Shown piece after piece: positions 7,702-38,155 of a stretch of DNA of 38,647 nt. The first letter of the stretch is position 1. Each line of letters begins with the position of its first letter. This DNA comes from Verrucomicrobiota bacterium (lineage in GTDB: Bacteria > Verrucomicrobiota > Verrucomicrobiia > Limisphaerales > UBA9464): the NCBI GenBank assembly GCA_016871615.1, contig VHCX01000029.1:1-38647 (forward strand). Direction: 5' to 3'. Both the position numbers and the translations under genes were made by a program. The notes beneath the pieces are model-generated. The model was not told where the DNA came from. It worked only from the letters and a program-made list of their open reading frames with translations, and did not search any database.

Positions 7702-8547
7702 ATGGCCCGCCCCGCCCTCAGCATCGTCATCCGCACCCTCGACGCCGCCGACACCCTCGGCGAGGTGCTGGGGCAACTCCGGCGCGACCCCGACGACCAG
7801 TTGATCGTGGTGGACTCGGGCTCGACCGACGGGACGGTGGAACTCGCCCGCGGCCAGGGCGCGGAGATTGTGCCGATCGTCCGGGGGGAGTTCACCTACG
7901 GCCGGGCGTTGAACCGGGGGTTCGCGGCCGCCCGCCACGCGTGGGTCCTGAGCCTCAGCGCGCACACCGTGCCGGCCGGTGCCGGGTTCCTCGACGCGTA
8001 CCGACGGGCCATCGGCCGGTTCCCGGGCACGGTCACCGCCGCCGTGGGGCCGATCCTCGGGGAGTTCGACGCGGCCCTCAGCGGGGGCATCACCTACTTC
8101 GAGGGCGACGATCTGCGGCGGGGATTCGGATTCGGGGCGGGAAATCCCAACAGCCTCTACCGCGCCGACGCTTGGCGTGGACGCCCCTTCGACGAGGAGA
8201 TCGGCGGCGGCGAGGACCTGCAGTGGTACTTCGATGCGCTGGCGGCCGGGGAGACGATCGCCGCGGTCCACGCCGCCGGGGTGCACTACCGGAACCGCCG
8301 GTCGATGCGGGCCTTCTACCGGAAGGGCCGTGTGGATTTCCGGGCCATGGCCCGGTTCATCGAACCCCACCGCCCCAGCCTGGCGGGCCTCGTGATCCGG
8401 GCCGCCAAGCTCGCGCTGTATGTGCCCCTGGGCCGCGTCGACTGGGCGGGGGCCAAGGGAAGCCTCGCCCACTGCCTCGGGACCTACGTCGAGGCACGGG
8501 CCCTGGCGAAACCTCGTGCGGCGACTCCGGGTGGCTCCCGGGATTGA
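7702..8547 (+). CDS. Family 2 glycosyltransferase
   Basis: A 281-residue GT-A fold enzyme without membrane segments. The nucleotide-sugar site is visible as LSIVIRTLDAADT and VVDSGSTDGT, and the catalytic-base region as GGGEDLQWYFDAL. Start chosen at the ATG giving MARPALSIV; the frame extends upstream only as a shadow. Oddly, the place where a DxD metal motif is expected reads SLSAHTVP, so the usual aspartates are replaced by Ser-Ala-His, which may mean altered metal use. No other polysaccharide genes are adjacent, so the acceptor is unknown. A second GT2 domain occurs in the fusion protein at 19759. Confidence 0.9.
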   Translation: MARPALSIVIRTLDAADTLGEVLGQLRRDPDDQLIVVDSGSTDGTVELARGQGAEIVPIVRGEFTYGRALNRGFAAARHAWVLSLSAHTVPAGAGFLDAYRRAIGRFPGTVTAAVGPILGEFDAALSGGITYFEGDDLRRGFGFGAGNPNSLYRADAWRGRPFDEEIGGGEDLQWYFDALAAGETIAAVHAAGVHYRNRRSMRAFYRKGRVDFRAMARFIEPHRPSLAGLVIRAAKLALYVPLGRVDWAGAKGSLAHCLGTYVEARALAKPRAATPGGSRD

Positions 8548-19758: not shown

Positions 19759-22512
19759 ATGAAACCTCCCGACCTGGACCACGAACTCGCCTCGGCTGGC
19801 CCGGGCGACATCGACGGTGGGGAGGATCGCGTCCCGGAGCCGATCCGGACGAGGTCGGACCGGGCCCGCATTGAGGCTTCCGTTCCAGCAGGGGCAGTAG
19901 GATCCTCACCTCCCGTGTCGGCACCCTTGAGTCCTCCGGGTGCGGCCCCGGTGAATCCCGCCCCCGCAACATCCCGAGTCCGCGTCACGGTCGACGGCAA
20001 AGGCTTTCGCCTGGGCACGGCCAAGTTCCACGCCAAGGGCGTCACCTATGGACCCCTGGCACCCGGCGCGGAGGGCATTCCGTTCGCCACGCCAGAGATC
20101 ACCCGCCGCGACTTCCGCCAGATCGCCGACCTCGGAGCCAACCTGCTGCGGGTGTACCACGTGCCACCCCGGTGGTTCCTCGATCTGGCGCACGAGCACG
20201 GCCTCAAGCTGCTGGTGGATGTGCCATGGAACCGCCAGCAGTGCTTCCTCGATGCGGCCGACACCCGGCGTGACCTGGTCGAATCGGTCCGGCAGGCGGC
20301 CCGCCGATGCGCCGGCCATCCGGCGGTCTTCGCCCTCAGCGTGGCCAACGAGATCCCCGCCGACATCGTCCGCTGGAGCGGCGCCGGAGCGGTCGCCGGA
20401 TTCCTCGATGAACTGATCCGGGCGGCCAAGGCCGAGGATCCCGAACTGCTCTGCACCTTCGGGAATTTCCCCACGACCGAGTTCCTCCGTGCCGAGTCGG
20501 CCGATTTCCTCTGCTTCAACGTCTACCTGCATGACCGGCAGCCCTTCGAGAACTACCTGGCCCGGCTCCAGATGCTCTCGGACACCCGGCCCCTGATGCT
20601 CGGGGAGATCGGCATCGACACGGTGCGCGAAGGCGAGGAGCGCCAATCGGAGGTCCTGCGCTGGAAGATCGAGAGCGCCTTCCGCTGCGGCTGCTCCGGG
20701 GTGGTGGTCTACGCCTTCACCGATGAGTGGTGGAATGGCGGCCGGCTGGTCGAGGATTGGGCCTTCGGGCTCACCCGCTTGGAGCGGACGCCGAAGCCTG
20801 CCTTCGAGACGGTCCGCCGGCAGTTCGCCGTGGCGCCCTACTTCCCGCTGCCCGCCACCCCGAAGGTGTCGGTGGTCATCGCCAGCTACAACGGGGCCAC
20901 CACGCTCAAGTCCTGCCTGCAATCGCTCGAGCACCTCAACTACCCCGACTACGAGGTCATCTTGGTCGACGACGGCTCGACCGACGGGACCCCGTCGATC
21001 GTGGCGCTGTTTCCGCGCATCATCAGCCTGCGGCACCCGAAGAACCTGGGACTGAGCGCGGCCCGCAACACGGGCATCGAGGCGGCCACCGGCACGATCG
21101 TCGCCTTCACCGACTCGGACTGCCGGGCCGACGAGGACTGGCTCCACTACCTGGTGGGAGACCTGCTGCGCTCGCGCTTCACCGGCATCGGCGGCCACAA
21201 CCTGCTGCCCCCGGACGACTCGCCCACGGCCGCGGCCGTGATGGTGTCGCCCGGGGGGCCTGCCCATGTGATGCTCAATGACCGGGTCGCCGAGCACATC
21301 CCGGGCTGCAACATGGCCTTCTACCGGTGGGCCCTGAGGGAGATCGGCGGCTTCAACCCGATCTACCGGAGGGCCGGCGACGACGTGGACATCTGCTGGC
21401 GGCTCCAGCAGCGGGGGTACCAGATCGGCTTCAGCCCGGCCGGCTTCGTCTGGCACTACCGGCGCAACACCGTGGCCGCCTACCTCCGCCAGCAGACCGG
21501 CTACGGCGAGGCCGAGTCGCTGCTCGAGCGCCGGCACCCGGAGAACTTCAACCGCTTCGGCGGCTCGGTCTGGCATGGCCGCATCTACACCGCGGCCAAG
21601 ATCGGCGTGGAGACGCGCCGGCCGGTCATCTACCACGGCATCTTCGGTAGCGCCCCCTTCCAGAGCATCTACACCCGCGACGCGAGCCTGACCCTCGTGG
21701 TCGGGACCAGCCTGGAGTTCCACGTTCTGGTGACCCTGCCCCTGCTGGTCGTCAGCGCGGTGGTTCCCTTCGTCTGGACCCTCGGCGTCGCCAGCCTCGT
21801 CTTCTCGCTGGGCCTGTGCTTGACGGCCGCGCTGCAGGCCGAGATCCCGGCCAGCAAGTCGCGCTTCTGGTCGCGGCCACTGGTGGCCCTGCTGTTCCTG
21901 CTCCAGCCCATCGTCCGTGGCTGGGCGAGGCACCGGGGCAACCTGCTGGGCAACCAGACGCCCCTGAGCGCGCGGGAGACCCTCGATTCCCTGAGCCTCG
22001 GCACCCGGGGCGAGGACCTCGACCACCTGCTGTACTGGGCCGAACAGGGCATCGACCGGATGACCTTCCTCGCGCACCTGCTCGAGCGATTGGACGCGCT
22101 GGGCTGGCAGAACAAGCCCGATGCCGGCTGGAGCCGGTTCGACGTGGAGATCCACGGCTCCCGCTGGTCGCGGCTGCAGCTGCTCACGGCGGTGGAGTTC
22201 CACGAGGGCGGGCGGCGGATGCTGCGTTGCCGGCTGCGCTCGGAGTGGAGCTCATTCGCCCGCGTGGTCTTCGCGACGGTGGCGGGCACGCTGCTGGTGT
22301 TCATCGGCATCTGGAGCCGGCTGCCCTTCCCGGAACCGTCGACCCCGCCGAGCCTGTTGCGGTTCTGGCCGTGGCTGAGCCTGCTCCTGCTGTGGCCGCT
22401 GGCCTGGAAACTCAATGGGGCCAAGCGGGACCTGCACCGGCTCGTGGCGTCGTTCCTCGACGGCTGCGCCAAGGAGTTCCGCTTCGTCCGGGTGCCCCAC
22501 GCCGGGGAGTGA
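19759..22512 (+). CDS. Fusion of a clan GH-A glycoside hydrolase-like domain and a membrane GT2 glycosyltransferase
   Basis: A 917-residue protein. A variable, proline-rich N-terminus (about 1-75) is followed by a TIM-barrel hydrolase-like domain (about 76-365) with the acid/base Glu198 in SVANEIPAD and the nucleophile Glu283 in LMLGEIGID, plus YAFTDEWWNGG. A complete GT2 domain spans about 370-640: KVSVVIASYNG, DDGSTDGT at about 404, FTDSDCRADEDW, and GDDVDICWRLQQRG as the catalytic base region. Membrane helices lie around 650-715 and 835-885, flanking a cytoplasmic stretch. One chain thus pairs sugar-bond-cleaving and sugar-adding folds, suggesting polysaccharide synthesis with trimming. 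The product is unknown. Start: the ATG giving MKPPDLDHE; a later GTG is possible. Confidence 0.88.
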   Translation: MKPPDLDHELASAGPGDIDGGEDRVPEPIRTRSDRARIEASVPAGAVGSSPPVSAPLSPPGAAPVNPAPATSRVRVTVDGKGFRLGTAKFHAKGVTYGPLAPGAEGIPFATPEITRRDFRQIADLGANLLRVYHVPPRWFLDLAHEHGLKLLVDVPWNRQQCFLDAADTRRDLVESVRQAARRCAGHPAVFALSVANEIPADIVRWSGAGAVAGFLDELIRAAKAEDPELLCTFGNFPTTEFLRAESADFLCFNVYLHDRQPFENYLARLQMLSDTRPLMLGEIGIDTVREGEERQSEVLRWKIESAFRCGCSGVVVYAFTDEWWNGGRLVEDWAFGLTRLERTPKPAFETVRRQFAVAPYFPLPATPKVSVVIASYNGATTLKSCLQSLEHLNYPDYEVILVDDGSTDGTPSIVALFPRIISLRHPKNLGLSAARNTGIEAATGTIVAFTDSDCRADEDWLHYLVGDLLRSRFTGIGGHNLLPPDDSPTAAAVMVSPGGPAHVMLNDRVAEHIPGCNMAFYRWALREIGGFNPIYRRAGDDVDICWRLQQRGYQIGFSPAGFVWHYRRNTVAAYLRQQTGYGEAESLLERRHPENFNRFGGSVWHGRIYTAAKIGVETRRPVIYHGIFGSAPFQSIYTRDASLTLVVGTSLEFHVLVTLPLLVVSAVVPFVWTLGVASLVFSLGLCLTAALQAEIPASKSRFWSRPLVALLFLLQPIVRGWARHRGNLLGNQTPLSARETLDSLSLGTRGEDLDHLLYWAEQGIDRMTFLAHLLERLDALGWQNKPDAGWSRFDVEIHGSRWSRLQLLTAVEFHEGGRRMLRCRLRSEWSSFARVVFATVAGTLLVFIGIWSRLPFPEPSTPPSLLRFWPWLSLLLLWPLAWKLNGAKRDLHRLVASFLDGCAKEFRFVRVPHAGE

Positions 22513-23982: not shown

Positions 23983-24079
23983 ACCGGTACCGGAGTATGG
24001 GTGACGGGTCCTGCGCGGGGCGCGGGCCCGGTTTCGGACCGATGCCCGCACCCGAAGGCGAATGCGCCCCCACGACCGA

Positions 24080-24796
24080 ATGAACATCACCCTCTTCATC
24101 CCCTGCTTCGTCGACACCTGCTTCCCCGAGGTGGGGCGGCACATGGTGCGCATCCTCGAGCGCCTTGGCCATCGGGTCACCTGCCCCGAGGCCGTCGCCT
24201 GCTGCGGTCAGCCGGCCTTCAACTCGGGCTATTGGGACGAGGCTCGGCAGGTCGCCGGCAAGACCCTCCACCACCTGCGGGACGCCGAGGCCGTGGTCAT
24301 CGCCTCCGGGTCGTGCGGGGCGATGCTCAAGGTGTTCTATCCCCAGCTCTACGAGGGACGGCCCGAGGCGGACGCCGCGCGGGCCCTGTCGGAGCGCACC
24401 TGGGAGTTCTCGGACTTCCTGGTCAACCGCCTCGGGGTCACCGACCTCGGCGCACGCTTTCCGGCCAAGGTCACGTTCCACGACGGCTGCCACGGGCTGC
24501 GCGAGCTGGGCATCAAGTCGGCCCCGCGCAAGCTGCTCGAGAAGGTCCGGGACCTCGAGCTGGTTGAGATGACCGACGCCGAGACGTGCTGCGGCTTCGG
24601 CGGCACCTTCGCGGCCAAGTTCCCGATGATCTCGACGGCGATGGGCGAGGTGAAGTGCGCGAGCGCCGCCGACACCGGGGCCGAGTACATGGTCTCCAAC
24701 GACTCGAGCTGCCTGATGCACCTGCAGGGCCTCCTGAGCCGTCAGAGCAAGCCCCTCAAGACGATCCACCTAGCCCAGATCCTCGACCCTCAATGA
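24080..24796 (+). CDS. lutA: LutA, (Fe-S)-binding subunit of L-lactate oxidation complex
   Basis: A 238-residue protein with two CCG-type cysteine-rich blocks: VACCGQPAFNSG with GSCGAML, and HDGCHGLRELG with ETCCGFGGTFAAKFP and NDSSCLMH. These match LutA/YkgE-type subunits, which bind Fe-S clusters and work with LutB and LutC to oxidise L-lactate to pyruvate. The length equals the family norm. ATG at 24080 gives the usual MNITLFIPCFVDTCF start; an upstream ATG at 24062 adds six residues. The stop overlaps lutB as ATGA. Confidence 0.95.
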   Translation: MNITLFIPCFVDTCFPEVGRHMVRILERLGHRVTCPEAVACCGQPAFNSGYWDEARQVAGKTLHHLRDAEAVVIASGSCGAMLKVFYPQLYEGRPEADAARALSERTWEFSDFLVNRLGVTDLGARFPAKVTFHDGCHGLRELGIKSAPRKLLEKVRDLELVEMTDAETCCGFGGTFAAKFPMISTAMGEVKCASAADTGAEYMVSNDSSCLMHLQGLLSRQSKPLKTIHLAQILDPQ

Positions 24797-26187
24797 GCAT
24801 CGCCGCGCAACAATTCCTGGAGGCGGCCGGGTCCATCACCCGGAACCTCCGCCACCGGGGCCTGATCCAGACGGCCCTGCGCAAGTACGAGGCCGCCCGC
24901 GACCGCAAGAAGTCGGCCTTCAACGACTGGTCGGCCGCCCGCCAGTCGGCCGCCGAGACGAAGTGGGACGCCATCAACCACCTCGACACCTACCTGGCCG
25001 AGTTCGCCTCGAAACTCGAGGCGCGGGGCACGAAGGTCCACTGGTGCCCGACCGAGCCCGAAGCCCGCGACACGATCCGCGGCATCATCCGCGACTCGCA
25101 GGCCAGGTGCATCGTGAAGTCCAAGGCGATGACGGCCGAAGAGATCCACCTCAATGAGGCCCTCGAGAAGGACGGCTTCGAGGTGGTGGAGTCCGACCTG
25201 GGCGAGTTCATCGTGCAGCTCCGGCAGGAGCCGCCCTACCACATCGTCTTCCCGGCCATGCACCTGACCCGGGACGAGATCAGCGACCTCTTCGAGCGCG
25301 AACTCGGTAGCGACCCCACCCGCGAGCCCGAGGAGCTGACGATGATCGCCCGGCGCGCCCTGCGCCGGAAGTACCTCCAGGCCGATGTCGGCATCACCGG
25401 CGCCAACTTCGCGATCGCCGAGACGGGCATGGTGTCGATCACCGAGAACGAGGGGAATGCCCGGCTCACCTCCGCCCTGCCCCGCGTGATGGTCACGCTG
25501 CTGGGCATCGAGAAAGTGCTGCCCAAGCTCGAGGACCTCGCGCTGTTCCTGCCCCTCCTGGCCACGGCCGGGGCCGGGCAGACCGTCACGGGCTACAACA
25601 CGCTCTACGGCGGCCCCAGGCAACCGGGCGAGTCCGACGGGCCGGTCGAATGGCACGTGGTGCTGCTCGACAACCGGCGCACCGAACTCCTGGCCGACCC
25701 CGAGCAACGCGACGCCCTGCACTGCATCCGCTGCGGGGCCTGCCTGAATGTCTGCCCGATCTTCCGCAACGTCGGCGGGCACACCTATGGCACGACCTAC
25801 AGCGGCCCGGTGGGCAGCGTCATCACGCCGCACCTGCGGGGCCTCCAGGACTGGAAGCACCTGAGCAACGCCTCGTCGTTGTGCGGGGCCTGCACGGAGG
25901 CATGCCCGGTGAAGATCGACCTGCACCACCACCTGCTGCAGAACCGGCGCAACGCCGTCGGGGATGCACCCTCATGGATCGAGCGGGTGGCCTGGCGAGC
26001 CCATGCCTTCGTGGTCAACACGCCGGCCCTCTACCAGTTCGCCCAGGAGGTGGGCCGCATCGTGGAACCGCTCCGGAGGCGCCTGCAGGGAACCCCGCTC
26101 GATCCGGCGCAATCGTGGACCCGGACGCGCGACCTGCCGCCGGTGGCCGGTGAAAGCTTCAAGGAATGGTGGAGGAACCGCCGATGA
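24793..26187 (+). CDS. lutB: LutB, ferredoxin-domain subunit of L-lactate oxidation complex
   Basis: A 464-residue protein. The N-terminal LUD-type domain has ARCIVKSKAMTAEEIHLN and DVGITGANFAIAETGMVSI. It is followed by two ferredoxin-like 4Fe-4S motifs, CIRCGACLNVCPIF and SLCGACTEACPVKIDLH. This is the standard LutB/YkgF architecture and length. It takes electrons from lactate and passes them towards the respiratory chain. Both junctions, with lutA and lutC, are ATGA overlaps, indicating coupled translation of stoichiometric subunits. Confidence 0.96.
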   Translation: MSIAAQQFLEAAGSITRNLRHRGLIQTALRKYEAARDRKKSAFNDWSAARQSAAETKWDAINHLDTYLAEFASKLEARGTKVHWCPTEPEARDTIRGIIRDSQARCIVKSKAMTAEEIHLNEALEKDGFEVVESDLGEFIVQLRQEPPYHIVFPAMHLTRDEISDLFERELGSDPTREPEELTMIARRALRRKYLQADVGITGANFAIAETGMVSITENEGNARLTSALPRVMVTLLGIEKVLPKLEDLALFLPLLATAGAGQTVTGYNTLYGGPRQPGESDGPVEWHVVLLDNRRTELLADPEQRDALHCIRCGACLNVCPIFRNVGGHTYGTTYSGPVGSVITPHLRGLQDWKHLSNASSLCGACTEACPVKIDLHHHLLQNRRNAVGDAPSWIERVAWRAHAFVVNTPALYQFAQEVGRIVEPLRRRLQGTPLDPAQSWTRTRDLPPVAGESFKEWWRNRR

Positions 26188-26909
26188 ATGCCCGCGAACG
26201 CATCCTCGCCCGCATCCGCGAGGCCCTGACCGTGCCGGCCCCGAAACCGGGATCGCACGGGCACGTGCACGGGAGCCACCCACCTCACGTGGGCTCCCAG
26301 GACGCCCAACCGATCGGCTTCCGCAACCGCCCGGTGCACGAGGCGCGCGCCTGGCTGCCGAAGGGCGGCACCACCCCGGCCGAGCATCTCGCGCGCTTCG
26401 CGGCGGCGTCCTCCGAGCTGAAGACCGACTTCCGCTCCGTGGATTCCGAGGCCGAGGCCCACGCCGCGCTACGGCGGATCGCCGATGACGAGGGCTGGCG
26501 CCGCGTGGCCTCCCACCATCATGCGTTGACCGACGCGGCCGTCGCCGCCCTCGGGCGCACGGCCCTGTTCACCGATGGCGGCTACCCGCCCGACGATCTC
26601 GAGGCCTGCGAGGCGGGCATCACCACCTGCGACGTGCTCGTCGCCCAGACCGGGTCGCTGGTGGTCAACAGCCGCACCTCCGGCGGACGCGCCCTGAGCG
26701 TGCTGCCGCCGCACCATGTGGTGCTGGCCCGGCGTGACCAACTGGTCTCGGACCTCACCGACGCCTTCGAGCGGGTCGAGGCCCTGCATGGCCGCCAGTG
26801 GCCCTCGATGATCTCGCTGGTCACCGGTCCGAGCCGGACGGGCGACATCGAGCGGATCCTCGTGCTGGGCGCCCACGGCCCGAAGAAGCTCACCGTCCTG
26901 ATGTGGTAG
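26184..26909 (+). CDS. lutC: LutC, LUD-domain subunit of L-lactate oxidation complex
   Basis: A 241-residue LUD-domain protein. The N-terminus MNARERILARIREAL is typical, and the core includes CEAGITTCDVLVAQTGSLVV, LSVLPPHHVVLAR and the closing SRTGDIERILVLGAHGPKK. These match LutC/YkgG. The ATG overlaps the lutB stop (ATGA). It completes the three-gene operon for L-lactate use, often found in organisms that degrade fucose or rhamnose to lactate. No LutR-type regulator or lactate permease is visible nearby. Confidence 0.94.
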   Translation: MNARERILARIREALTVPAPKPGSHGHVHGSHPPHVGSQDAQPIGFRNRPVHEARAWLPKGGTTPAEHLARFAAASSELKTDFRSVDSEAEAHAALRRIADDEGWRRVASHHHALTDAAVAALGRTALFTDGGYPPDDLEACEAGITTCDVLVAQTGSLVVNSRTSGGRALSVLPPHHVVLARRDQLVSDLTDAFERVEALHGRQWPSMISLVTGPSRTGDIERILVLGAHGPKKLTVLMW

Positions 26910-28691: not shown

Positions 28692-31600
28692 TCACTGGTA
28701 GGTGATCACCAGTTTGCCATTCTCGTTCTTGATCGAGATGATCGTGACCGAGGGGCTGATGCTCAGATAACCGGCGGTCCCGGTGGTCGGGATGTCGGCG
28801 GTCACCGTCTTGGTGGCCTCGGAGAGGCTCACGCCAGTGAGCGGCGTGCCGGTCAGACCGGCCGGGACCTTGCCGACGGCGACGCGGGTGGACTTGGCCG
28901 GGGCAACGCCGACGCGGTAGGCCTTGAAGCCACCGTTCTCGAGGTCGTTGAGCAGCACCTTGTCGCCGTTGGCCTTGACGCTGGCGATCTCGATGTGGGC
29001 GGCGCCACCGCTGTCTTGGAACAGGACCCGGATCGGGTAGATGCCGGCATCCTTCACGAAGAACCGGATCGGGGCGTTGGCGTTGGCTCCGTTGAGGTCG
29101 ACGCCGGCCTCACCGAGGAGGATGCCATCGGCAGGCTTGCCGATGGGGCCACCCTGGGCGCGAACCCGGTCGTCGCTGAACAGGGACAAGGTCACCACGC
29201 CGGCCGGAAGCTCGACGAAGGTGGTGATCTCGGCGGCGATGCCCGTGGTGGCACCGCTGGTGCCGGGGAGACCCGGCATCCCCTCGTCCGGCACGAAGGC
29301 ACCCGCGCTGGATTCGGCCACGGAATTGAGGTTGATCGTGGTGGCGATCTCGAACTTGACGGTCTTGCCGTCGCGGACGCCCGCCGCCAGGGAGTTGCCC
29401 GGCTCACCCTCGTTGGCGAAGTTGTCGATCACGGCACCGGAATCGTCCTTGAGCGTTCCCAGGAGGGCCAACTCGACATCGTCCAGAGACTTCGTGGTCA
29501 TGGCCTCGTTGTGCACGATACGCCAGATGAAGCCGGGCTTGGTCTTGTCGACCGAGACGGCCTGATGGACCGCAGTCAGCACGCCGGTCTTGGGCGAGAT
29601 GAAGGTGCCGGCATCGGTCACGACCTTGCCGGTGGTGTCCTTCACCGCGATGAGGTAAGTGTGGTTGCCCTCGGCAAACGGAGCTGCCGCCGTGTAGGTC
29701 ACGTCGGTGGCGTCACCGCTCTTCGGAGCCACGGACACCGTCACGTCCTTGCCGTCGATGGAGAGCTTGATGCCCTTGGGATCGGCGATCGCGCCGCCCT
29801 TGTCGTTGATGCGGAACGAGAAGGTGATGATGCTGGGGTTGACCGCCGAGAGGAACAGGCTGTCCGAACCCGTGGAGGCCGTGCCGAGCGAGACCAGCGC
29901 GGTCTCCTTGGGCGACTTGCCGAACACGATGGCGTGGGCACCCAGACCGCCCCAGCCCTTCTGGCCCGCCTGCCCGGGACCGTTGTCGCCGTCGTTGATG
30001 GCCATGCCGAGACCGAACTGGGCGCCCAAGGTCAGCGGCGGGGTCTTGCCGATGGCCGAGGCCGGGAGCTTGATCTCGTAATAGGTCTTCTTCTTCGCGG
30101 TGTCGCGGGTCACGACCGCCTCGGTGCCGCCGGGGCCGGCCTCGTGCATCACGATCACGTCGCCGAGGTCACCATCCACGCCACCCAAGGCGTAATTGTA
30201 GAGGGCCACCTGGGTCTGACGATCGGCGCTGGCGATCATCAACTGCACGGAGTCGCCGTTCCAGGCGCTCTTGGCGGCGTTCTCGTGGTAATCGTCGGTG
30301 ACCACGAAGCCGAAGTAGACGTTGTCGGCGTCATAGACGACCTGCACGGCCGAGGTCTGGTCATCCGGGCCGGACCAAGTGCCACCCGCGTATTCCTCAA
30401 ACAGCACGTACTTGCCGGTGCCGGCGGCGCCGGAACCCTTGGGCACCGAGAACTTCGGGTCCGAGAGGACGGGCACGCCGCCCCACTCGGTGAGCTTGCC
30501 GTCGATCACGATCGGAGCGGTGACCGCGGTGGCGGTGTAGAACTCCTTGCCCGGCTCGATGTCGTTCGGGACGACCGAGCTCAGGGTGAACAGCGCGGTC
30601 TCGGCCGGGGTCTTGCCGAAGACGATGGAGTGGGCGCCGAGGCCGCCCCAGCCCTTCTGGCCGGCCTGACCAGCACCGGCGTCGCCGTCATTGATGGCCA
30701 TGCCCAGACCGAACTGGACTCCGCCCTGCAGGGTCTCGATGGCCAAGGAAGCCTTCGGGAGCTTGATCTCGTAGGTGGTGCGCTTGGTGGCGCCGTTGCG
30801 CGTCACGACCGCCTCGGTGCCGCCGGGGCCGGCCTCGTGCATGACGATGGTCTCGCCGAGGTCGCCCTCGACGCCGCCCAGTGCATAGTTGTAGAGGGCC
30901 ACCTGCTTGGTGCGGTCGGCGCTGGCGATCATGAGCTGGATCGAGTCGCCATTCCACGCGCTCTTGGCGGCGTTCTCGTGGTAGTCGTCGGTCACCACGA
31001 AGCCGAAATAGACGTTCTCGGAGTCGAAGATGACCTGCACGGCCGAGGTCTGGTCATCCGGACCGGACCAGGTGCCACCGGCGTACTCCTCGAAGAGCAC
31101 GTACTTGCCGTTCGGGCCGGAACCCTTGGGGATGGAGAACTTCGGGTCGGCCAGAACCGGCACGCCCTTCCACTCGTCGAGCTTGCCATCGATGGTGATG
31201 GTGCCCTGGGCGCGGTTGACCGTGTAGAACTCCTTGCCCGGCTCGATGTCGTTCTTTTTGGTGAGGGTGATCTCGGCGGTCTCGCCCGGGGTCTTGCCGA
31301 ACACGATGGCGTGTGCGCCCAAACCACCCCAGCCCTTCTGGCCGGCCTGCCCGGCGCCGTTGTCGCCGTCGTTGATGGCCATGCCCAAGCCAAACTTCAC
31401 GCCGCCCTCGAGCTTCCCGATGGCCAGCGAGGCCTTCGGGAGCTTGATCTCGTAGATGGTGCGCTTGCTGGTCCCGTTGCGCGTCACGATCGCCTCGGTG
31501 CCGCCGGGTCCCGCCTCGTGCATGACGATGGTCTCACCGAGATCGCCCTCGACGCCACCCAACGCGTAGTTGTAGAGGGCCACCTGCTTGGTGCGGTCGG

Positions 31601-32024
31601 CACTGGCGATCATGAGCTGGATCGAGTCGCCATTCCACGCGCTCTTGGCGGCGTTTTCGTGGTAGTCGTCGGTCACCACGAAGCCAAAGTAGACGTTCTC
31701 GGCATCATAGACGATCTGGACCGCCGAGGTCTGGTCGTTCGGACCAGACCAGGTGCCGCCGGCATACTCCTCGAACAGAACGTACTTGCCCGTACCCTTC
31801 GGGCCGGACCCCTTGGGTATCGCAAACTTCGGGTCGGCCAGCACAGGCACGCCCGACCACTCGTTGAGATTGCCATCGAGGACGATGGGTTTCGGGGCAA
31901 AAACGACCGAGTAGGTCTCCTTGCCCGGTTCGATGTCGTTGGTCGGGGTCGACTGGGCGGCCGCGCTGAAGGCGAGGAAGCCAGCCGCCAAACCCAACAA
32001 GGATTGGTGGATGTTGGTTTTCAT
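28692..32024 (-). CDS. Large secreted protein with three tandem CBM9-like domains
   Basis: An 1110-residue protein with a signal peptide (LLGLAAGFLAFSAAA, cleavage near Gln24). Three repeats begin with NDIEPGKE at residues 29, 258 and 487, a period of exactly 229. Each contains IDGKLDEW-like, YVLFEEYAGGTWSGP, VYFGFVVTDDYHENAAKSAW, NGDSIQLMIASADR and AINDGD...GQKGWGGLG blocks, as expected of CBM9-type carbohydrate-binding beta-sandwiches. From about residue 716 an Ig-like region follows, and the protein ends GKLVITYQ. No catalytic domain is seen, so binding or adhesion is likely. ATG chosen because AAGG lies about 10 bases upstream and the signal peptide starts there. The gene has its own terminator. 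Confidence 0.88.
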   Translation of the reverse strand: MKTNIHQSLLGLAAGFLAFSAAAQSTPTNDIEPGKETYSVVFAPKPIVLDGNLNEWSGVPVLADPKFAIPKGSGPKGTGKYVLFEEYAGGTWSGPNDQTSAVQIVYDAENVYFGFVVTDDYHENAAKSAWNGDSIQLMIASADRTKQVALYNYALGGVEGDLGETIVMHEAGPGGTEAIVTRNGTSKRTIYEIKLPKASLAIGKLEGGVKFGLGMAINDGDNGAGQAGQKGWGGLGAHAIVFGKTPGETAEITLTKKNDIEPGKEFYTVNRAQGTITIDGKLDEWKGVPVLADPKFSIPKGSGPNGKYVLFEEYAGGTWSGPDDQTSAVQVIFDSENVYFGFVVTDDYHENAAKSAWNGDSIQLMIASADRTKQVALYNYALGGVEGDLGETIVMHEAGPGGTEAVVTRNGATKRTTYEIKLPKASLAIETLQGGVQFGLGMAINDGDAGAGQAGQKGWGGLGAHSIVFGKTPAETALFTLSSVVPNDIEPGKEFYTATAVTAPIVIDGKLTEWGGVPVLSDPKFSVPKGSGAAGTGKYVLFEEYAGGTWSGPDDQTSAVQVVYDADNVYFGFVVTDDYHENAAKSAWNGDSVQLMIASADRQTQVALYNYALGGVDGDLGDVIVMHEAGPGGTEAVVTRDTAKKKTYYEIKLPASAIGKTPPLTLGAQFGLGMAINDGDNGPGQAGQKGWGGLGAHAIVFGKSPKETALVSLGTASTGSDSLFLSAVNPSIITFSFRINDKGGAIADPKGIKLSIDGKDVTVSVAPKSGDATDVTYTAAAPFAEGNHTYLIAVKDTTGKVVTDAGTFISPKTGVLTAVHQAVSVDKTKPGFIWRIVHNEAMTTKSLDDVELALLGTLKDDSGAVIDNFANEGEPGNSLAAGVRDGKTVKFEIATTINLNSVAESSAGAFVPDEGMPGLPGTSGATTGIAAEITTFVELPAGVVTLSLFSDDRVRAQGGPIGKPADGILLGEAGVDLNGANANAPIRFFVKDAGIYPIRVLFQDSGGAAHIEIASVKANGDKVLLNDLENGGFKAYRVGVAPAKSTRVAVGKVPAGLTGTPLTGVSLSEATKTVTADIPTTGTAGYLSISPSVTIISIKNENGKLVITYQ
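29880..30566 (-). repeat. CBM9-like repeat unit 3 (about 687 bp)
   Basis: Codes for residues from 487 to about 715. It is the most diverged unit: GVDGDLGDVIV replaces GVEGDLGETIV, RQTQVAL replaces RTKQVAL, and the GGV/LEGGV part is PPLTLGA. The right boundary is approximate because the C-terminal Ig-like region follows directly. Confidence 0.85.
30567..31253 (-). repeat. CBM9-like repeat unit 2 (687 bp)
   Basis: Codes for residues 258-486. It is two residues shorter at GPNGKYV but regains the length with the extra linker SSVVP before unit 3, keeping the period at 229. Confidence 0.9.
31254..31940 (-). repeat. CBM9-like repeat unit 1 (687 bp)
   Basis: Codes for residues 29-257 of the secreted protein. 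Compared with unit 2, a 70-residue stretch in the middle (from ENVYFGF to GPGGTEA) is identical. The unit has GPKGTGKYV where unit 2 has GPNGKYV. Confidence 0.9.
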
Positions 32025-32299
32025 TTCTTGATTGCCTTGGTAGGGGGCCATGCCGGACCCGTGACGGCAACAGAAATGTGGCGAACCGGATGATGATGTT
32101 CCGGAACGGTCATTTTTGGGGAACAGGCCTCCCCTCAACCAACCCGAAAGCCCCCTTCCGGGCGAGGGAGTTCGCCGGTTTCGAACCAACGCGTTCCACC
32201 CCGAGGCATCCGGTGGCGACGGTCGGCCCCCAGCGTCGTTCCTGCCGGCGCAACCCCGAACGATCCACGACGGTTCCACACCAAGGCCCCGGTAGCCCT
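32025..32299. other. Intergenic region between the CBM9-like gene and tRNA-Leu
   Basis: About 275 bases that must hold the promoter of the minus-strand CBM9-like gene. A TTCCGGAA palindrome lies near 32100. No clear -35/-10 pair is visible. No gene is supported here. Confidence 0.5.
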
Positions 32300-32385
<86 letters not shown>

Positions 32386-32428
32386 GACCGTGTTTTTGTT
32401 GGGGTTTTTGGGGTCACCCCACGATTTC

Positions 32429-32462
32429 AGTGGGCTTGGATACACTTTTGGATACACTTGCC
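32429..32462. repeat. Direct repeat TTGGATACACTT x2 before the integrase
   Basis: Between the tRNA 5' end and the integrase start, GGATACACTT occurs twice in tandem (near 32438 and 32450). Spacing of 12 bases and position suggest binding sites for the integrase or a regulator, or part of the attachment site. Function is inferred from position only. Confidence 0.5.
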
Positions 32463-32467
32463 ACCCA

Positions 32468-33616
32468 GTGAAACCCGCTGAAACGAAACGATCAGATGTG
32501 CGAGGGTACAAGACGGTCTTGGACGGTCGCAACCAACCTGTTCGACGTTTGTACCGCCGAGACGGCGTCTTCTACACGCGTTTCACGACAATCGACCAGG
32601 CCGGACGAAAGCGGAAGGTGTGGAGATCTCTGAAGACGGCAACGACGGTCGCAGCGGCCAAGGCGGCGATGCTGAAGCTGATCTCCGACGCGGCTGAGAC
32701 CAGCATTCCGGTTCAGGGGCGCTGCCCCACATTCGCCGCCTACTCCGAGCGCTTTCTCGAAGAAGCTTCCCCTAACAAGCGCCCAGCGACGCAGCGGAAG
32801 GAGAAGACTCACATCGCCTGGTGGGTTGAGCGAATCGGCGCGCAGCCGGTAAGCCGAATTCATCGGACCCACATCAACAATGCCATCGCCGACCTGAGAA
32901 AAAACGGGCTCAGCCCGCGCACCTGTAACCTGTACGTCATCACTCTCCGATGCGTGCTGAAGCGCGCCCTGGAGGAAGGCTTGATCACCTCGCTGCCGAC
33001 ACTAGGACTCCGCCCACTCAAGGTGACGCAAATCAAACGGCAACTGGTGAGCATGGAAACCTTTGAGCGGATGCTCGAGGTGGGAGCCCCCTCGGGCACG
33101 AAGAACCACCAGCAATTTCGGGATTACTACCGGTTCCTCCTGCTCACCGGCGCCCGTGAGAAGGAAGCTCTTCGAGTCCGCTGGGCCGACGTCGACTTTG
33201 ATAATCGCCAAGTGACAATCGGAGCGGATGGCTTGGCCAAAAACCATGAACACCGGGTCGTCGACTTCGACTCTGCCCTGGAGGCCCTGCTTAGGGAACT
33301 GGCCGACCGCCGTGACCCGGACTCGCAATGGCTGTTTCCTTCGCCGCAACGAGGTGAGAAGGACACTCCGGCCAAAACCTTCCGGGAGAGCCTAAGACTC
33401 GCCTGCGACCACGCTGGTGTTGCACGAGTCGGTTTCCACGATGCGCGTCACCACTTCGTTTCCAAGTGCGTCATGGCGGGAATCGATTTCATGACCATCG
33501 CGGCCTGGGTCGGCCACAAAGACGGCGGAGTGCTGATCGGCAAGGTCTACGGCCACCTTGCCAGCGAGCACCGGAAGGCTATGGCGGCCAAACGATACCA
33601 AGGCACAAACCGATGA
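32468..33616 (+). CDS. Tyrosine recombinase (site-specific integrase)
   Basis: About 382 residues from the GTG at 32468; GTG at 32498 or a TTG-type start at 32390 are alternatives. An N-terminal core-binding domain (YSERFLEEASPNKRPATQRK) precedes the catalytic domain with the full set of residues: Arg230 in LTGAREKEALR, Lys in GLAKNHEHR, His324 and Arg327 in FHDARHHF, His350 in WVGHKDG and the nucleophile Tyr361 in GKVYGHL. It recombines the element's attachment site with the chromosome, presumably near tRNA-Leu. Its stop overlaps the next start as ATGA. Confidence 0.94.
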   Translation: MKPAETKRSDVRGYKTVLDGRNQPVRRLYRRDGVFYTRFTTIDQAGRKRKVWRSLKTATTVAAAKAAMLKLISDAAETSIPVQGRCPTFAAYSERFLEEASPNKRPATQRKEKTHIAWWVERIGAQPVSRIHRTHINNAIADLRKNGLSPRTCNLYVITLRCVLKRALEEGLITSLPTLGLRPLKVTQIKRQLVSMETFERMLEVGAPSGTKNHQQFRDYYRFLLLTGAREKEALRVRWADVDFDNRQVTIGADGLAKNHEHRVVDFDSALEALLRELADRRDPDSQWLFPSPQRGEKDTPAKTFRESLRLACDHAGVARVGFHDARHHFVSKCVMAGIDFMTIAAWVGHKDGGVLIGKVYGHLASEHRKAMAAKRYQGTNR

Positions 33617-34458
33617 AGACCAAGAACAAGCCATTGAAGGCTCCACCAACGCCCGGCCACGGCCCACCGAAAGGGGGCAAGATTGCAAGCCCCGGCGCTG
33701 GGTTGGCAGGCACAGAGTTCAGCAAACTCGCGCCCGAGGAATACGAGGCGGCCTGCGTTTTTGAAATGATCGTGGACATGAGTCCCAGTGAACGCAAAGC
33801 GATCCCTGAACACCTGCAACCTTTCGTGCGAGCGGTTGAGGCTGTCGAGGTAGAACCGGAGCGCGCGCGCTCAAACCGTCCAAGCTGGATGCAATGGCGG
33901 GAAAGCAACCCCAGACTCAAGAGTTGGATGGTCCGAAAAACGCGCGGATCCATAGTCGCGGTCGGTCAAGGAAACGGCCCTGCGGTCAGCGTCATCACCG
34001 GGGACGAAGCTGCTTTCATCAACGATCAAGTGCGTATTCTGCCTCAGCCCGAGAGGGTGATGTCCGACACCAGCTGGCATTTGACTCTGCCCACCAAAAA
34101 CCCAGATCCCCAAACCATCGCCCTAACGATTCGTTGGGAGGCTGGCCTCCACCAGATTGGGTCCGAGATCACTCAATGGTTGGAGAAAAACGCACCGCCA
34201 GGGACTCCCGGGGGCGGAGTCAGCGCGATCGTTGACCTGTCCGCGCCAACCAAAGGGAAGTCACCCTTCAAACGACCGGCATCCATCCTTCGTCTGATTT
34301 GGATTTGCCGTATGCTGAGGTCCGGGTCGAAACCGAAGGCGATTCCCAACAAATTGGCATCCCAGAGCTCGGTTGCTCACGCCAAGGGCAATCTGATCAG
34401 AGAGTACGGGCGAATTCTCAAAGTAAATCCGCCGCGTCACCTCGCGAAAGCACGCTGA
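33613..34458 (+). CDS. Hypothetical protein encoded in the mobile element
   Basis: A 281-residue protein, translationally coupled to the integrase (ATGA). The first 40 residues are basic and Pro/Gly-rich. The centre has PSERKAIPEHLQPFVRAVEA and MQWRESNPRLKSWMVRKTRG. Near the C-terminus SILRLIWICRMLRSGSKPKA, with the following IPNKLASQSSVAHAKG, could form a helix-turn-helix. I do not recognise a family. Its 3' end touches the decayed IS21 fragment, so the natural C-terminus may have been changed by the insertion. Confidence 0.7.
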   Translation: MKTKNKPLKAPPTPGHGPPKGGKIASPGAGLAGTEFSKLAPEEYEAACVFEMIVDMSPSERKAIPEHLQPFVRAVEAVEVEPERARSNRPSWMQWRESNPRLKSWMVRKTRGSIVAVGQGNGPAVSVITGDEAAFINDQVRILPQPERVMSDTSWHLTLPTKNPDPQTIALTIRWEAGLHQIGSEITQWLEKNAPPGTPGGGVSAIVDLSAPTKGKSPFKRPASILRLIWICRMLRSGSKPKAIPNKLASQSSVAHAKGNLIREYGRILKVNPPRHLAKAR

Positions 34459-35055
34459 CCAGCGAGACGACGCCTCTCTGTCACCCTGGGAGAAAAGCTC
34501 AAGACCACCCGAAGGACCCAGGGACGACGGCGAACGCCGGTGACTGGATCGATCACCCAGGCACCGGTGCCGAAGTCAACTCGAGCTTCCTAACCCGGCT
34601 GGGCCTTGATGCGCCAAACGCACTCCAAGGCCGCACCGCGCAAGCGCCGAACGAAGCGTTTGACCGACTGGTAGGATCCGGTGAACCCGACCTCGGCCAC
34701 GAGGTCCTGGTGGATGCGCTGGGCACTCAGGCCGGCCTCGAGCTTGGCTTCGATGAGCGCCGAATGAGGAGAGCAACGACTGGGGCGCCCCGGATCGGCA
34801 CCCGCCGGTGGAACGGGCCTTGGACCGGCCGGCAAACCGGGGGCCAAAGAGGCAGGAGCCGGACCGGAAGCAGCCTCGTTCCCGGCGGTCGAAATGGTGG
34901 GCACTTAGGATCCGGCGGATGCGCAGGTAGCGGCGGATGGCCTGACGATCCGGTCCGAGATGGAGCGAAAAGCGCTGGATTGGCCTCCCGCCACATCGGG
35001 GAGAGTGTCGAACTCCTGAGATCCAAACTTGAACCGAGTCGGGCACCGGCATCGA
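34459..35055 (-). pseudogene. istA: Decayed IS21-family transposase (istA) fragment
   Basis: Pieces of IstA are spread over several minus-strand frames. The N-terminal helix-turn-helix appears as FSLHLGPDRQAIRRYLRIRR. A second frame gives ALIEAKLEAGLSAQRIHQDL and then GFTGSYQSVKRFVRRLRG. After a stop at the end of VWRIKAQPG the same frame goes on with EARVDFGTGAWVIDP and RRPWVLRVVLSFS, as in the start of the IstA catalytic core. Later sequence is lost or shifted again. No istB is visible and neither terminal inverted repeat could be fixed by eye. This is a dead insertion relic within the element. Confidence 0.82.
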
Positions 35056-35258
35056 GTGTCACCCCGCGCAGTCCTCCAAGCCCCTGAGAAGTGCAGAAGC
35101 ATCGCTTGAATCCGCCGTGATTGAATTTTTTTCGCAGGTGTTCTCGAACCGCGAAGCTCTGAGATTCAACGGGTTTTGGCTTGCGCCCGACCTGCACGGA
35201 AATACCGCCATCATCTTGCAGGAGACCCCGTCGAATACCTTGGTAAAGTTGGGATTGT
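35056..35258. other. Non-coding region upstream of the excisionase-like gene
   Basis: About 200 bases between the IS21 relic and the excisionase-like start. I see no gene in it. It probably contains the promoter for the three-gene replication module, but no convincing -35/-10 pair is visible. Confidence 0.4.
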
Positions 35259-35531
35259 ATGAACGCATTTGAACCCACCCAACCACCGTTAGCCCTCAGG
35301 AGATTCCAGGACCTGATGGGTATCTCCCGTTGCACCATGTACCGTTACCGCCGCCTGGGGTGGCTTTCGGTCATCAACATCGCAGGACGCCCTTACGTAA
35401 CCCCCGAATCTGCCGCCGAATTCAACCGTCGCGCCGCAGCCGGAGAGTTCAAGAAGGCGCCGCATGGGGCGGCTCAACAAACACTAGCTTCAGGGGGCAC
35501 GGCGACCAACCAAGGGAGGGTGCAAGCGTGA
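35259..35531 (+). CDS. Excisionase/AlpA-like helix-turn-helix protein
   Basis: A 90-residue protein with a MerR-like winged helix: ALRRFQDLMGISRCTMYRYR, then LGWLSVINIAGRPYVTPESA, the normal layout of excisionase-type HTH proteins. The tail is not conserved. Such proteins assist the integrase in excision or regulate element genes. The stop overlaps the start of the primase gene as GTGA, making it the first gene of the replication module. Confidence 0.78.
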   Translation: MNAFEPTQPPLALRRFQDLMGISRCTMYRYRRLGWLSVINIAGRPYVTPESAAEFNRRAAAGEFKKAPHGAAQQTLASGGTATNQGRVQA

Positions 35532-36469
35532 ACTTGGAACAAGTGATTGCCGAATCAGTCCTCGGCTCAATTCAATGGAAGACCGACACTGAGGGTTTTT
35601 GTCGTTGCCCGGGGGCTCAGTTCCATACCTCAAAAAACCTAAAGACCGACTGCCTCGTAAAGATCTCCAAGCCATCGACAGTGTTCTGCTTCCATAGTTC
35701 ATGCATGGCGGAGATAGTAAAGGCGAGGTCAAACCTATTCCGCGCGTTGACGGCATCGGATCAGGGGTCAGGACGAGCCAAGAGACTAAAACTGACTTCA
35801 GAGGAAACCAACCGACGACGCGACGCAGCTAGGATTCGAGGAATGACATTAAGGGCTAAAAATGCTCTTGCAGTAATCATCAAAGAATTCCACCTATCAG
35901 AAGAGGATCTCCTTGAGGAATCACCCATCTTGATTCCAATTCATATTCCTGTTCATTCAAGATTACTCATTCAACATTTGTTTGAACCAGAGGACGTAAT
36001 CTGGATAGGCAACACTTATGATTCCGGAAAACCTTGGCATGCAAGGCACTTCAAGACCGCAAAGGATTGGGGCGAAAAAAGATCAATCACTGATCCTTTT
36101 GTTGTTCCATCCACCTTCAAACCGGGCTCAGTGTCTCGTTCCAAGTCAAATACGCTGTCGCGTCGCTATCTAGTTGTTGAAAGCGACACAGTGCCTGCGG
36201 AAGATTTCTTATCGGTCATAAACTGGTGTCGGCAATTCATGCCACTCCATGCAGTAGTTCACACTGGAGGTAAGAGTCGACACGGATGGTTTGATACCTC
36301 TTGCCTCGATCCTGAGGCGTGGACGCAACTTCGTTCGATTCTGCCCGCCCTTCAAGTTGACTCTGCATTGTTCAGAGAATCGCAACCGGTTCGCCTGCCT
36401 GGGGTGCGAAGAGATAACAGCCATTGGCAGCGGTTGCTGTTCTTGGCTCCAAGAAAGGGGGTCTTGTGA
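35528..36469 (+). CDS. Element primase: CHC2-like zinc finger with AEP-like catalytic motifs
   Basis: A 313-residue protein starting at a GTG that overlaps the previous stop. The N-terminus has a zinc-finger pattern: CRCPGAQFHTS (Cys27, His33) and FCFHSSCMAE (Cys54, His56, Cys59), as in CHC2-like primase fingers. Near the C-terminus RRYLVVESDTVPAEDFL and HAVVHTGGKSRHGWFD resemble the acidic motif and SGGKSxH motif of archaeo-eukaryotic-type primases in mobile elements. It probably primes element DNA replication together with the helicase downstream. Codon use and base composition become clearly AT-richer from about 35.8 kb. The exact family is inferred from motifs. Confidence 0.75.
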   Translation: MNLEQVIAESVLGSIQWKTDTEGFCRCPGAQFHTSKNLKTDCLVKISKPSTVFCFHSSCMAEIVKARSNLFRALTASDQGSGRAKRLKLTSEETNRRRDAARIRGMTLRAKNALAVIIKEFHLSEEDLLEESPILIPIHIPVHSRLLIQHLFEPEDVIWIGNTYDSGKPWHARHFKTAKDWGEKRSITDPFVVPSTFKPGSVSRSKSNTLSRRYLVVESDTVPAEDFLSVINWCRQFMPLHAVVHTGGKSRHGWFDTSCLDPEAWTQLRSILPALQVDSALFRESQPVRLPGVRRDNSHWQRLLFLAPRKGVL

Positions 36470-37743
36470 GCGCCCCTCAACCAAGCGACTATTTGCCGAT
36501 TTCTGACATTGTATACAACTCTCAAAAACGCACTTGGTATACAAGGGATCTATCGGGCAAGTGGATTAACATCAATGAAGAATCAGTTAAACGACGCCTT
36601 GTTGCAATTGGTTTCACAAGAGATAAAATGCCATATGGTAGCTATATAGAAAAAGAAATGACTCGTATTGAAAACGAACAAAATGTCTCCTTTGTGGGAC
36701 CGCTAGCAGGTTGGCCTGTAGGAATTCATAAACATGGCGACGACAGATTCTTAGTAACGAAAGCAGCAAGACCACTGACCACAAAGGACACCCGATGTGA
36801 TATTTTACTAAAAATCCTCGTATCCGTATTGGGTGGCGAACCACAGTTTGAATGGTTTAAGGGCTTGATGAGGACTCGACGTGAAGCCATACGAAATCGC
36901 CGTTTCGTTCCCGGCCCCATAGTAATATTGGTAGGCCCCGCTAAAAGCTACAAGTCATTCATTCAAATGATAATCACAGAATTGCTCGGCGGTCGACAGG
37001 CTAGACCTTGGCGCTATATGAGCGGTCAAACAACATTTAACGGCGATTTATTCGGAGCCGAGCACTTATGCATCGAGGATGAGGCTCCGCCTACTGATAG
37101 CGCAACTCAAACCAAAATAGGTTCTCACATCAAATCACTCTTATTCGCAGATAACCTAAGCGCACACTTCAAGGGACTTGATGCCACATATCTTAAACCG
37201 ATATGGACCATGAGCATGTCGACCAATGATGAGCCTTCAAACCTTTTATGCATACCACCAATTGACGAATCGTTAGAAGACAAAATAGCACTTATTAAAA
37301 CCACTTGCATTGATTCGCCTTGGACCGACGACGAACACAAGCAGACTTGGATGCGCGAGCATTTTTCAGAAGAGGTTCAAGGACTCGCCTACATTATTGA
37401 CCAACAAGCAATTCGACCTGAATGGCGTAACGACAGGACAATTATCAAAGCATACAAGAATATTGATCTATTAACCATGATCAATAACGTTTCCCCAGAA
37501 GAGCAACTACTTAATATGCTAGATATGATCACCAATGGCGCAACGATCAAGGGGACAGCCGTCGAAATTGATCTTAAAATTAGAGCTAGGTTTTCAAGAC
37601 AAACAGAGAAGATCGCTGACACTCATTGGAAAATCGGAGTTCTATTGGGAAAGCTGGCCAAAAAACACCCAAAGCGTGTCACGAAAAAGACTATTCGGGG
37701 ATCAGCTGAGTGGAGAATACTACCTCCTCTCAACCTCGTCTGA
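36466..37743 (+). CDS. SF3-like replicative helicase (D5/DUF5906 type) with atypical Walker A
   Basis: About 425 residues. The GTG start overlaps the primase stop (GTGA) and is preceded by AAAGGGGG, a strong ribosome binding site. The core shows Walker A at 157-164 as GPAKSYKS, where Tyr replaces the invariant Gly before Lys; Walker B HLCIEDEA at 200-207; FKGLDATYLKP; and motif C SMSTND with Asn254. This order fits SF3/D5-type helicases that unwind the element origin. The sequence is AT-rich and unlike the chromosomal genes in codon use, which indicates transfer. No downstream replication gene on this strand is seen. Confidence 0.8.
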   Translation: MSAPQPSDYLPISDIVYNSQKRTWYTRDLSGKWININEESVKRRLVAIGFTRDKMPYGSYIEKEMTRIENEQNVSFVGPLAGWPVGIHKHGDDRFLVTKAARPLTTKDTRCDILLKILVSVLGGEPQFEWFKGLMRTRREAIRNRRFVPGPIVILVGPAKSYKSFIQMIITELLGGRQARPWRYMSGQTTFNGDLFGAEHLCIEDEAPPTDSATQTKIGSHIKSLLFADNLSAHFKGLDATYLKPIWTMSMSTNDEPSNLLCIPPIDESLEDKIALIKTTCIDSPWTDDEHKQTWMREHFSEEVQGLAYIIDQQAIRPEWRNDRTIIKAYKNIDLLTMINNVSPEEQLLNMLDMITNGATIKGTAVEIDLKIRARFSRQTEKIADTHWKIGVLLGKLAKKHPKRVTKKTIRGSAEWRILPPLNLV

Positions 37744-37819
37744 GCCAATTACAAGCCGAATGGAGCGTGAAACACGAATGCGGCAAATGACAAAACGACC
37801 GCAGGGGCTCGACCAGTCC

Positions 37820-38155
37820 TCAGCACTCCTTGTTCTGGGGCTTCGCCCGCTCTGCAGAACGCTGATGGCAACCAGAGGGGCAAACCAAATCGTCCAGAGT
37901 AGAGCGAAAATCTGCGCGAAAGATCCCGGCTACCAACCCACGCCGCAGTGCGCACGTTAGATCGAGACGCATGCAAACAAGGCAGGAAGCGGATTGCGGT
38001 GGATGCTCCCGCGTCTGCTCCTGCAAGGCATCCAGTGACCCATCGATGAAAGCATTTACAAGGGTACCGAGAGCGGTCACCAGCAACCATCTGGGGGGGG
38101 CAGCGCCTCCGTGAATATTCCGCTGAAGTTGAAGCCAGGGTGGACTGGTGGACAT
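37820..38155 (-). CDS. Possible small hypothetical protein, uncertain
   Basis: About 111 residues from an ATG at 38155 at the edge of the left arm of the 18-bp inverted repeat. The stretch LVTALGTLVNAFIDGSLDAL, followed by CALRRGLVAGIFRADFRSTL, looks protein-like rather than random, and the gene faces the helicase gene. A run of eight G at 38093-38100 lies within it and could hide a frameshift. No family is recognised. It might be non-coding. Confidence 0.35.
   Translation of the reverse strand: MSTSPPWLQLQRNIHGGAAPPRWLLVTALGTLVNAFIDGSLDALQEQTREHPPQSASCLVCMRLDLTCALRRGLVAGIFRADFRSTLDDLVCPSGCHQRSAERAKPQNKEC

Follow-up and report, generated by a model that had tools for sequence, protein, structure and literature searches.

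The window, a 38,647-nt stretch of contig VHCX01000029.1, encodes at 19759-22512 of the plus strand a single protein of 917 aa. It consists of an N-terminal tail, a clan GH-A barrel, a GT2 glycosyltransferase domain, two membrane helices, a small domain and two further helices, located as follows.

19759-22512, plus strand: GH-A barrel/GT2/membrane fusion protein, 917 aa (open frame, Pfam, genome search)
19984-20829, plus strand: clan GH-A (GH157/GH2-like) barrel, residues about 76-357 (Pfam, domain model, VIA)
20350-20352, plus strand: Glu198, predicted acid/base, NE motif (motif position, conservation)
20605-20607, plus strand: Glu283, predicted nucleophile (alignment with the position changed in LaGH157 E224A, conservation)
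20860-21558, plus strand: GT2 domain, MftF-like, residues about 368-600 (Pfam, TIGR03965)
21691-21753, plus strand: predicted membrane helix 1, residues 645-665 (hydropathy, model)
21766-21837, plus strand: predicted membrane helix 2, residues 670-693 (hydropathy, model)
21964-22251, plus strand: small alpha/beta domain, residues 736-831 (model)
22252-22320, plus strand: predicted membrane helix 3, residues 832-854 (hydropathy, model)
22354-22476, plus strand: long helix, residues 866-906, probably membrane helix 4 (model; the membrane assignment is ours)

The reading frame is free of stops from 17155 through 22512 (1785 aa). Its segment before 19759 opposes minus-strand frames, mainly an M16-peptidase-like one for which every family match lies below cut-off. 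As this upstream part is antisense to other frames and the alignment with the closest homologue (locus L030, 91% identical) starts at Met1 of the 917-aa call, a start at 19759 is reasonable. Structure prediction gave a pLDDT of 87.6 and a pTM of 0.80 for the full-length protein and a pLDDT of 93.7 for the barrel alone; a Pfam scan of the C-terminal third returned no match. The protein's own genome contains one full-length match, and the remaining four matches span the GT2 domain only.

An earlier note, made from the letters of this DNA, had proposed that a hydrolase-like barrel and a membrane GT2 share one chain, and had named a fusion artefact as the alternative should homologues always be two separate genes. 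Both halves (query start at or before 160, end at or after 600) lie in one open frame at 180 of 189 loci, a count that includes the own copy and duplicates, many of the loci being the same genome twice. Seven of the nine exceptions run off a contig edge, L098 starts 66 bases from an edge and L108 is frameshifted. A profile of the barrel alone matched 9 of 145 genomes of the phylum at E≤1e-30 (own genome included, one match each), and the open frames that contain these matches measure 808-1793 aa. Together these results rule out a fusion artefact and bear out the one-chain arrangement. One internal stop codon occurs in some genome matches (e.g., in G009, G051, G052, G136, G066, G210 and G124), and the copy in G044 (L211, G044:C44) ends inside the GT2 domain.

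At E≤1e-60, 53 of 59 near-kin genomes and 27 of 288 genomes sampled across the phylum gave a match, the own genome counted in both; with L129 as query, 175 of 245 genomes of the order matched. Named records contributed 79 loci. All of these records bear Verrucomicrobiota names but that of L102, where the copy is partial and the contig, labelled Phycisphaerae, could be misbinned. Since the scan of named genomes used exact peptide patterns from one protein (80 of 81 matches retained), other phyla are thinly covered by it. No plasmid record reaches 80% coverage of the protein, and none matches the barrel on its own; of the two best-listed matches, H2 is a GT2 protein in which Pfam finds no GH domain, and H1 shows GT2 motifs by eye in an open frame that leaves no room for a barrel. 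A search of open-licence full text found no published description of this GH-A barrel/GT2 family.

The barrel was weakly recognized by Pfam as Glyco_hydro_2_C (E=1.2e-4; its 21.8 bits exceed the cut-off of 21). Glu198 lies within SVANE and Glu283 within LGEIG, at the positions that the earlier note had given for a clan GH-A catalytic pair. Both residues, together with N197, R131 and N254, are present in all 86 distinct full-length sequences, so that homologues stripped of the catalytic residues, which would have spoken against the proposal, did not appear. After dereplication at 85% identity (84 rows), N197 and E198 occur in all 82 rows having the column and E283 in all 83; the truncated rows L102 and L160 account for the gaps. 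As judged from the alignment, conservation of the putative catalytic pair is far above chance, and the sequence rows show the two glutamates, with Asn preceding the acid/base, that characterize clan GH-A. The TIM-barrel fold of the clan was likewise recovered, with VIA scores of Z 32.4 (9g4n), 30.6 and 30.3 to GH157 entries and up to 31.4 to GH2.

The nearest relatives of the barrel differ with the method. In a profile search of solved structures (34 matches, the majority GH2-type enzymes), GH157 ranked first at 4.8e-24, followed by a GH2 beta-galacturonidase as best GH2 (3.1e-16), GH158 (1.9e-8) and a 1,3-beta-glucanosyltransferase (5.4e-7). A single-sequence search placed a GH2 enzyme ahead of GH157 (8e-8 vs 3.2e-5), whereas in Foldseek GH157 (8.2e-17) came out ahead of a GH2 enzyme (2.5e-16). 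By fold, GH157 and GH2 are thus tied; by sequence profile, GH157 is nearer. GH2 enzymes carry beta-sandwich domains before the barrel, a feature not seen in the window protein, where approximately 75 residues lie ahead of the barrel; in L118-L121, L127 and L051 the open frame has no more than 20 residues ahead of the residue-84 column. E283 aligns, in a single-sequence alignment, with the residue altered in LaGH157 E224A. A GH157 enzyme from Bacteroides is described as hydrolytic and active on linear beta-1,3-glucan (PMC10229575). Given the tie by fold and the single-sequence search favouring GH2, the hint that beta-1,3-glucan may be the barrel's substrate is real but weak.

The GT2 domain matches PF00535 at E=1.9e-31 and, as the earlier note had stated, its site is intact, with DDGS at 404, DSD at 452, DDVD at 541 and QQTGYG at 578, and is followed by the membrane helices. 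The acidic residues D452 and D454 are kept in 83 of 83 rows with the column and D541, D542 and D544 in 84 of 84; Pfam match, DxD and catalytic acidic motif together identify the domain as GT2. The motif QxxRW is absent from the whole 917-aa protein. The top-scoring NCBIfam model is MftF (TIGR03965, residues 363-629), and three divergent members score 175.7-186.8 bits against it. The 180.6 bits of the window protein fall short of the cut-off of 280, so that by this model its GT2 domain is MftF-like rather than an MftF. The model leaves the barrel uncovered, and a search of the own genome for the mycofactocin radical-SAM gave no match. MftF itself is described as adding a cellulose-like chain (PMC7491314). 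A second GT2-like sequence was noted by eye at 7755-8547 of the plus strand (DSGSTDGT); the scanned stretch has no Pfam match.

Hydrophobic stretches in the window protein are confined to the part after the GT2 domain (642-699 and 830-857). A 19-residue window averaging at least 1.6 was taken as hydrophobic, and a row as testable if it had at least 19 open-frame residues before the residue-84 column. Ahead of the barrel, none of the 71 testable dereplicated rows is hydrophobic, 11 of 82 being too short. The test applies to 169 of the 180 two-half loci, of which a single one, L126, is hydrophobic (1.68), in the upstream open frame; its near relative L167 has merely 26 residues ahead of the barrel. 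Between barrel and GT no hydrophobic segment occurs in 82 dereplicated rows, and over the span from barrel to GT end a single row, L127, reaches the limit (1.64), with its peak within the barrel. The C-terminal part reaches at least 1.84 in 78 rows and 0.5-1.22 in L118-L121, which form one clade (support 99; quick tree drawn with midpoint, L102 omitted) and are predicted by hydropathy to be soluble, with no membrane helix. As GT2 enzymes draw on cytoplasmic nucleotide sugars, as an upstream hydrophobic segment is found in 1 of 169 loci and 0 of 71 rows, and as one clade appears to be helix-less, the barrel is predicted to be cytoplasmic together with the GT. This prediction is well supported and agrees with what the earlier note had supposed. 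The note's further idea, a transferase or proofreader at work during chain synthesis, is thereby supported in part, the sequence being compatible with a transferase, a proofreader or a hydrolase alike.

Of the domain order and genomic partners for which the earlier note had suggested a search, the order recurs, and an exporter as partner is found beside paralogues. An MsbA/ChvA-type ABC exporter gene lies downstream on the same strand beside paralogues in 14 genomes (G136, G323, G130, G100, G210, G042, G051, G457, G439, G376, G363, G419, G487 and G507) and at L102; at L158 it is separated from the fusion gene by a methyltransferase gene and a further open frame. Two of these exporters were scanned, and MsbA-related models scored highest, glucan-exporter models also matching, all below cut-off. 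In the tree, all 8 rows of one clade are exporter-linked, as are 4 of the 5 rows in a second. These counts describe the clades and not a random sample, the paralogues having been chosen chiefly by resemblance to the exporter-linked L129 or because they came from families already seen to have the exporter. A PMT-like membrane gene lies downstream in 14 other loci, and APH-like kinase and SAM-methyltransferase genes are close to some paralogues. At L155 and L159, APH-like phosphotransferase coding adjoins the exporter, at L155 with both in one frame.

The window gene's subfamily has neither ABC exporter nor PMT-like gene adjacent. The window itself contains a single ABC-type ATPase stretch, about 15 kb off on the opposite strand, and three regions read around ABC exporters of the own genome revealed no recognizable partner. 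A conserved operon was considered for the window gene and rejected, as its neighbours recur in close relatives only: among 188 loci, many with short flanks, M16-like genes were seen at 14, UbiC-like (named by eye) at 5, ROK-like (weak, below cut-off) at 19, LutA at 6, LutB at 4 and LutC at 4. The lactate oxidation genes in the window (LutA/LutB/LutC-like, 24062-26909, plus strand; LutB above curated cut-off) are among these neighbours.

Besides MftF, three known systems resemble the fusion in part. Cyclic glucan synthase (Cgs) shares a GT2-like GT and GH domains in one membrane protein with all soluble domains cytoplasmic (PMC10901819). It differs in being composed of GT84, cyclase (GH189) and GH94, whereas the family here has a GH-A barrel N-terminal to an MftF-like GT2; a Pfam scan of the window protein found no GH94 phosphorylase domain. 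The cyclic glucan of Cgs has a known ABC transporter, whereas here the exporter stands beside paralogues only. Pseudomonas NdvB/Orphan GH17-GT2 proteins likewise place a GH TIM barrel ahead of a membrane GT2 within a single polypeptide, but their GH17 is proposed to be periplasmic, membrane helices link it to the GT2 and the GT2 has Q(Q/R)xRW (PMC10237404). The same paper mentions P. syringae GH17-GT2 proteins with no signal peptide and a GH17 predicted to be cytoplasmic, that of DC3000 being suggested to be non-functional (PMC10237404). In the window protein no GH17 match was listed up to E=1 and no hydrophobic stretch separates the domains, which sets it apart from the NdvB type. GH157 endo-beta-1,3-glucanases, finally, rank first for the barrel in both the profile and the fold comparison; LaGH157, however, is longer, at about 527 residues, and the Bacteroides GH157, a predicted cell-surface degrader (PMC10229575), contrasts with a barrel fused to a GT.

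These features would fit a cytoplasmic glycan synthase that is anchored to the membrane and carries an in-line remodelling domain of glycosidase fold, probably a transglycosylase, a reading to which we give an even chance. The GT2 domain would use a nucleotide sugar to elongate a sugar chain, the product possibly being a beta-glucan-type glycan. The GH157-like barrel would work on the chain while it is still cytoplasmic, most likely as a transglycosylase that releases, branches or cyclises it and not as a digestive hydrolase. In the exporter-linked paralogues, the adjacent MsbA/ChvA-type transporter may then send the product out. The linked exporters favour a product finished in the cytoplasm, although they adjoin paralogues of the window gene. 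The best reading is an arrangement resembling Cgs plus exporter with different GH parts, in which the barrel would transglycosylate or trim. Against synthesis with remodelling stand the window subfamily's lack of an adjacent exporter, the upstream hydrophobic stretch of L126 and the truncated gene of G044.

The likeness to MftF weakens the case for a polymer, a small acceptor being possible instead. In the main rival explanation the GT2 domain adds one or a few sugars to a small molecule, peptide or lipid and the barrel trims the product in the cytoplasm. MsbA-type exporters transport lipids too, which would suit such a product, as would MftF as best model of the GT2 half, the missing QxxRW and the APH-like kinase and SAM-methyltransferase genes by some paralogues; the sub-threshold TIGR03965 score and the genome's lack of a mycofactocin radical-SAM match leave it rather unlikely, with perhaps one chance in a few. 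Slightly less probable again is a purely hydrolytic proofreader or length controller that solely cuts wrong or over-long chains. The intact catalytic pair would allow this, and GH157, to which the barrel is closest by profile among solved families, is hydrolytic on beta-1,3-glucan (PMC10229575), but an ever-present hydrolase next to a synthase would presumably waste product unless controlled, and in Cgs length control is attributed to the phosphorylase domain (PMC10901819). A barrel that serves for binding or scaffolding and catalyses little is very improbable given a predicted acid/base and nucleophile invariant in the 82 and 83 rows with these columns.

A more specific form of the synthase-remodelling reading, advanced tentatively and with less than even confidence, is an undescribed class of cytoplasmic glycan synthase-transglycosylases convergent with cyclic glucan synthase, in which a GH157-like beta-glucanosyltransferase would finish (cyclise, branch or release) the glucan of an MftF-like GT2 in the same polypeptide for secretion by an ABC exporter. 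To our knowledge, little is known about the envelope glycans of Verrucomicrobiota; if true, the phylum would possess a periplasmic or surface glucan system using no OpgG, Cgs or NdvB parts. Glycosidase folds are usually taken for outward-facing degraders. One conserved beside a cytoplasmic GT, even in members predicted to be soluble, would amount to a distinct way of finishing glycans before export, and such genes should not be labelled plain hydrolases.

Replacement of OpgG-type periplasmic glucan synthesis by the GH-GT2 protein was also considered, as G044 combines its truncated gene with OpgG, and was dropped for want of clean exclusivity. In a tally by eye from two lists over 245 genomes of the order (G482, below cut-off, counted as OpgG-negative), 26 of the 44 OpgG-positive genomes carry GH-GT2, the truncated copy of G044 among them, and the 18 that lack it include 13 from a single genus; the 201 OpgG-negative genomes divide into 149 with and 52 without.

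Elsewhere in the window, a long protein on the minus strand (28692-32240) has three CBM9-like stretches (PF06452, 3.9e-28). At 32390-38090 the GC content drops from about 0.60 to 0.47, and by eye the region holds an integrase-like frame (32390-33616) and a P-loop frame (36424-37743), which together suggest an integrated mobile element.
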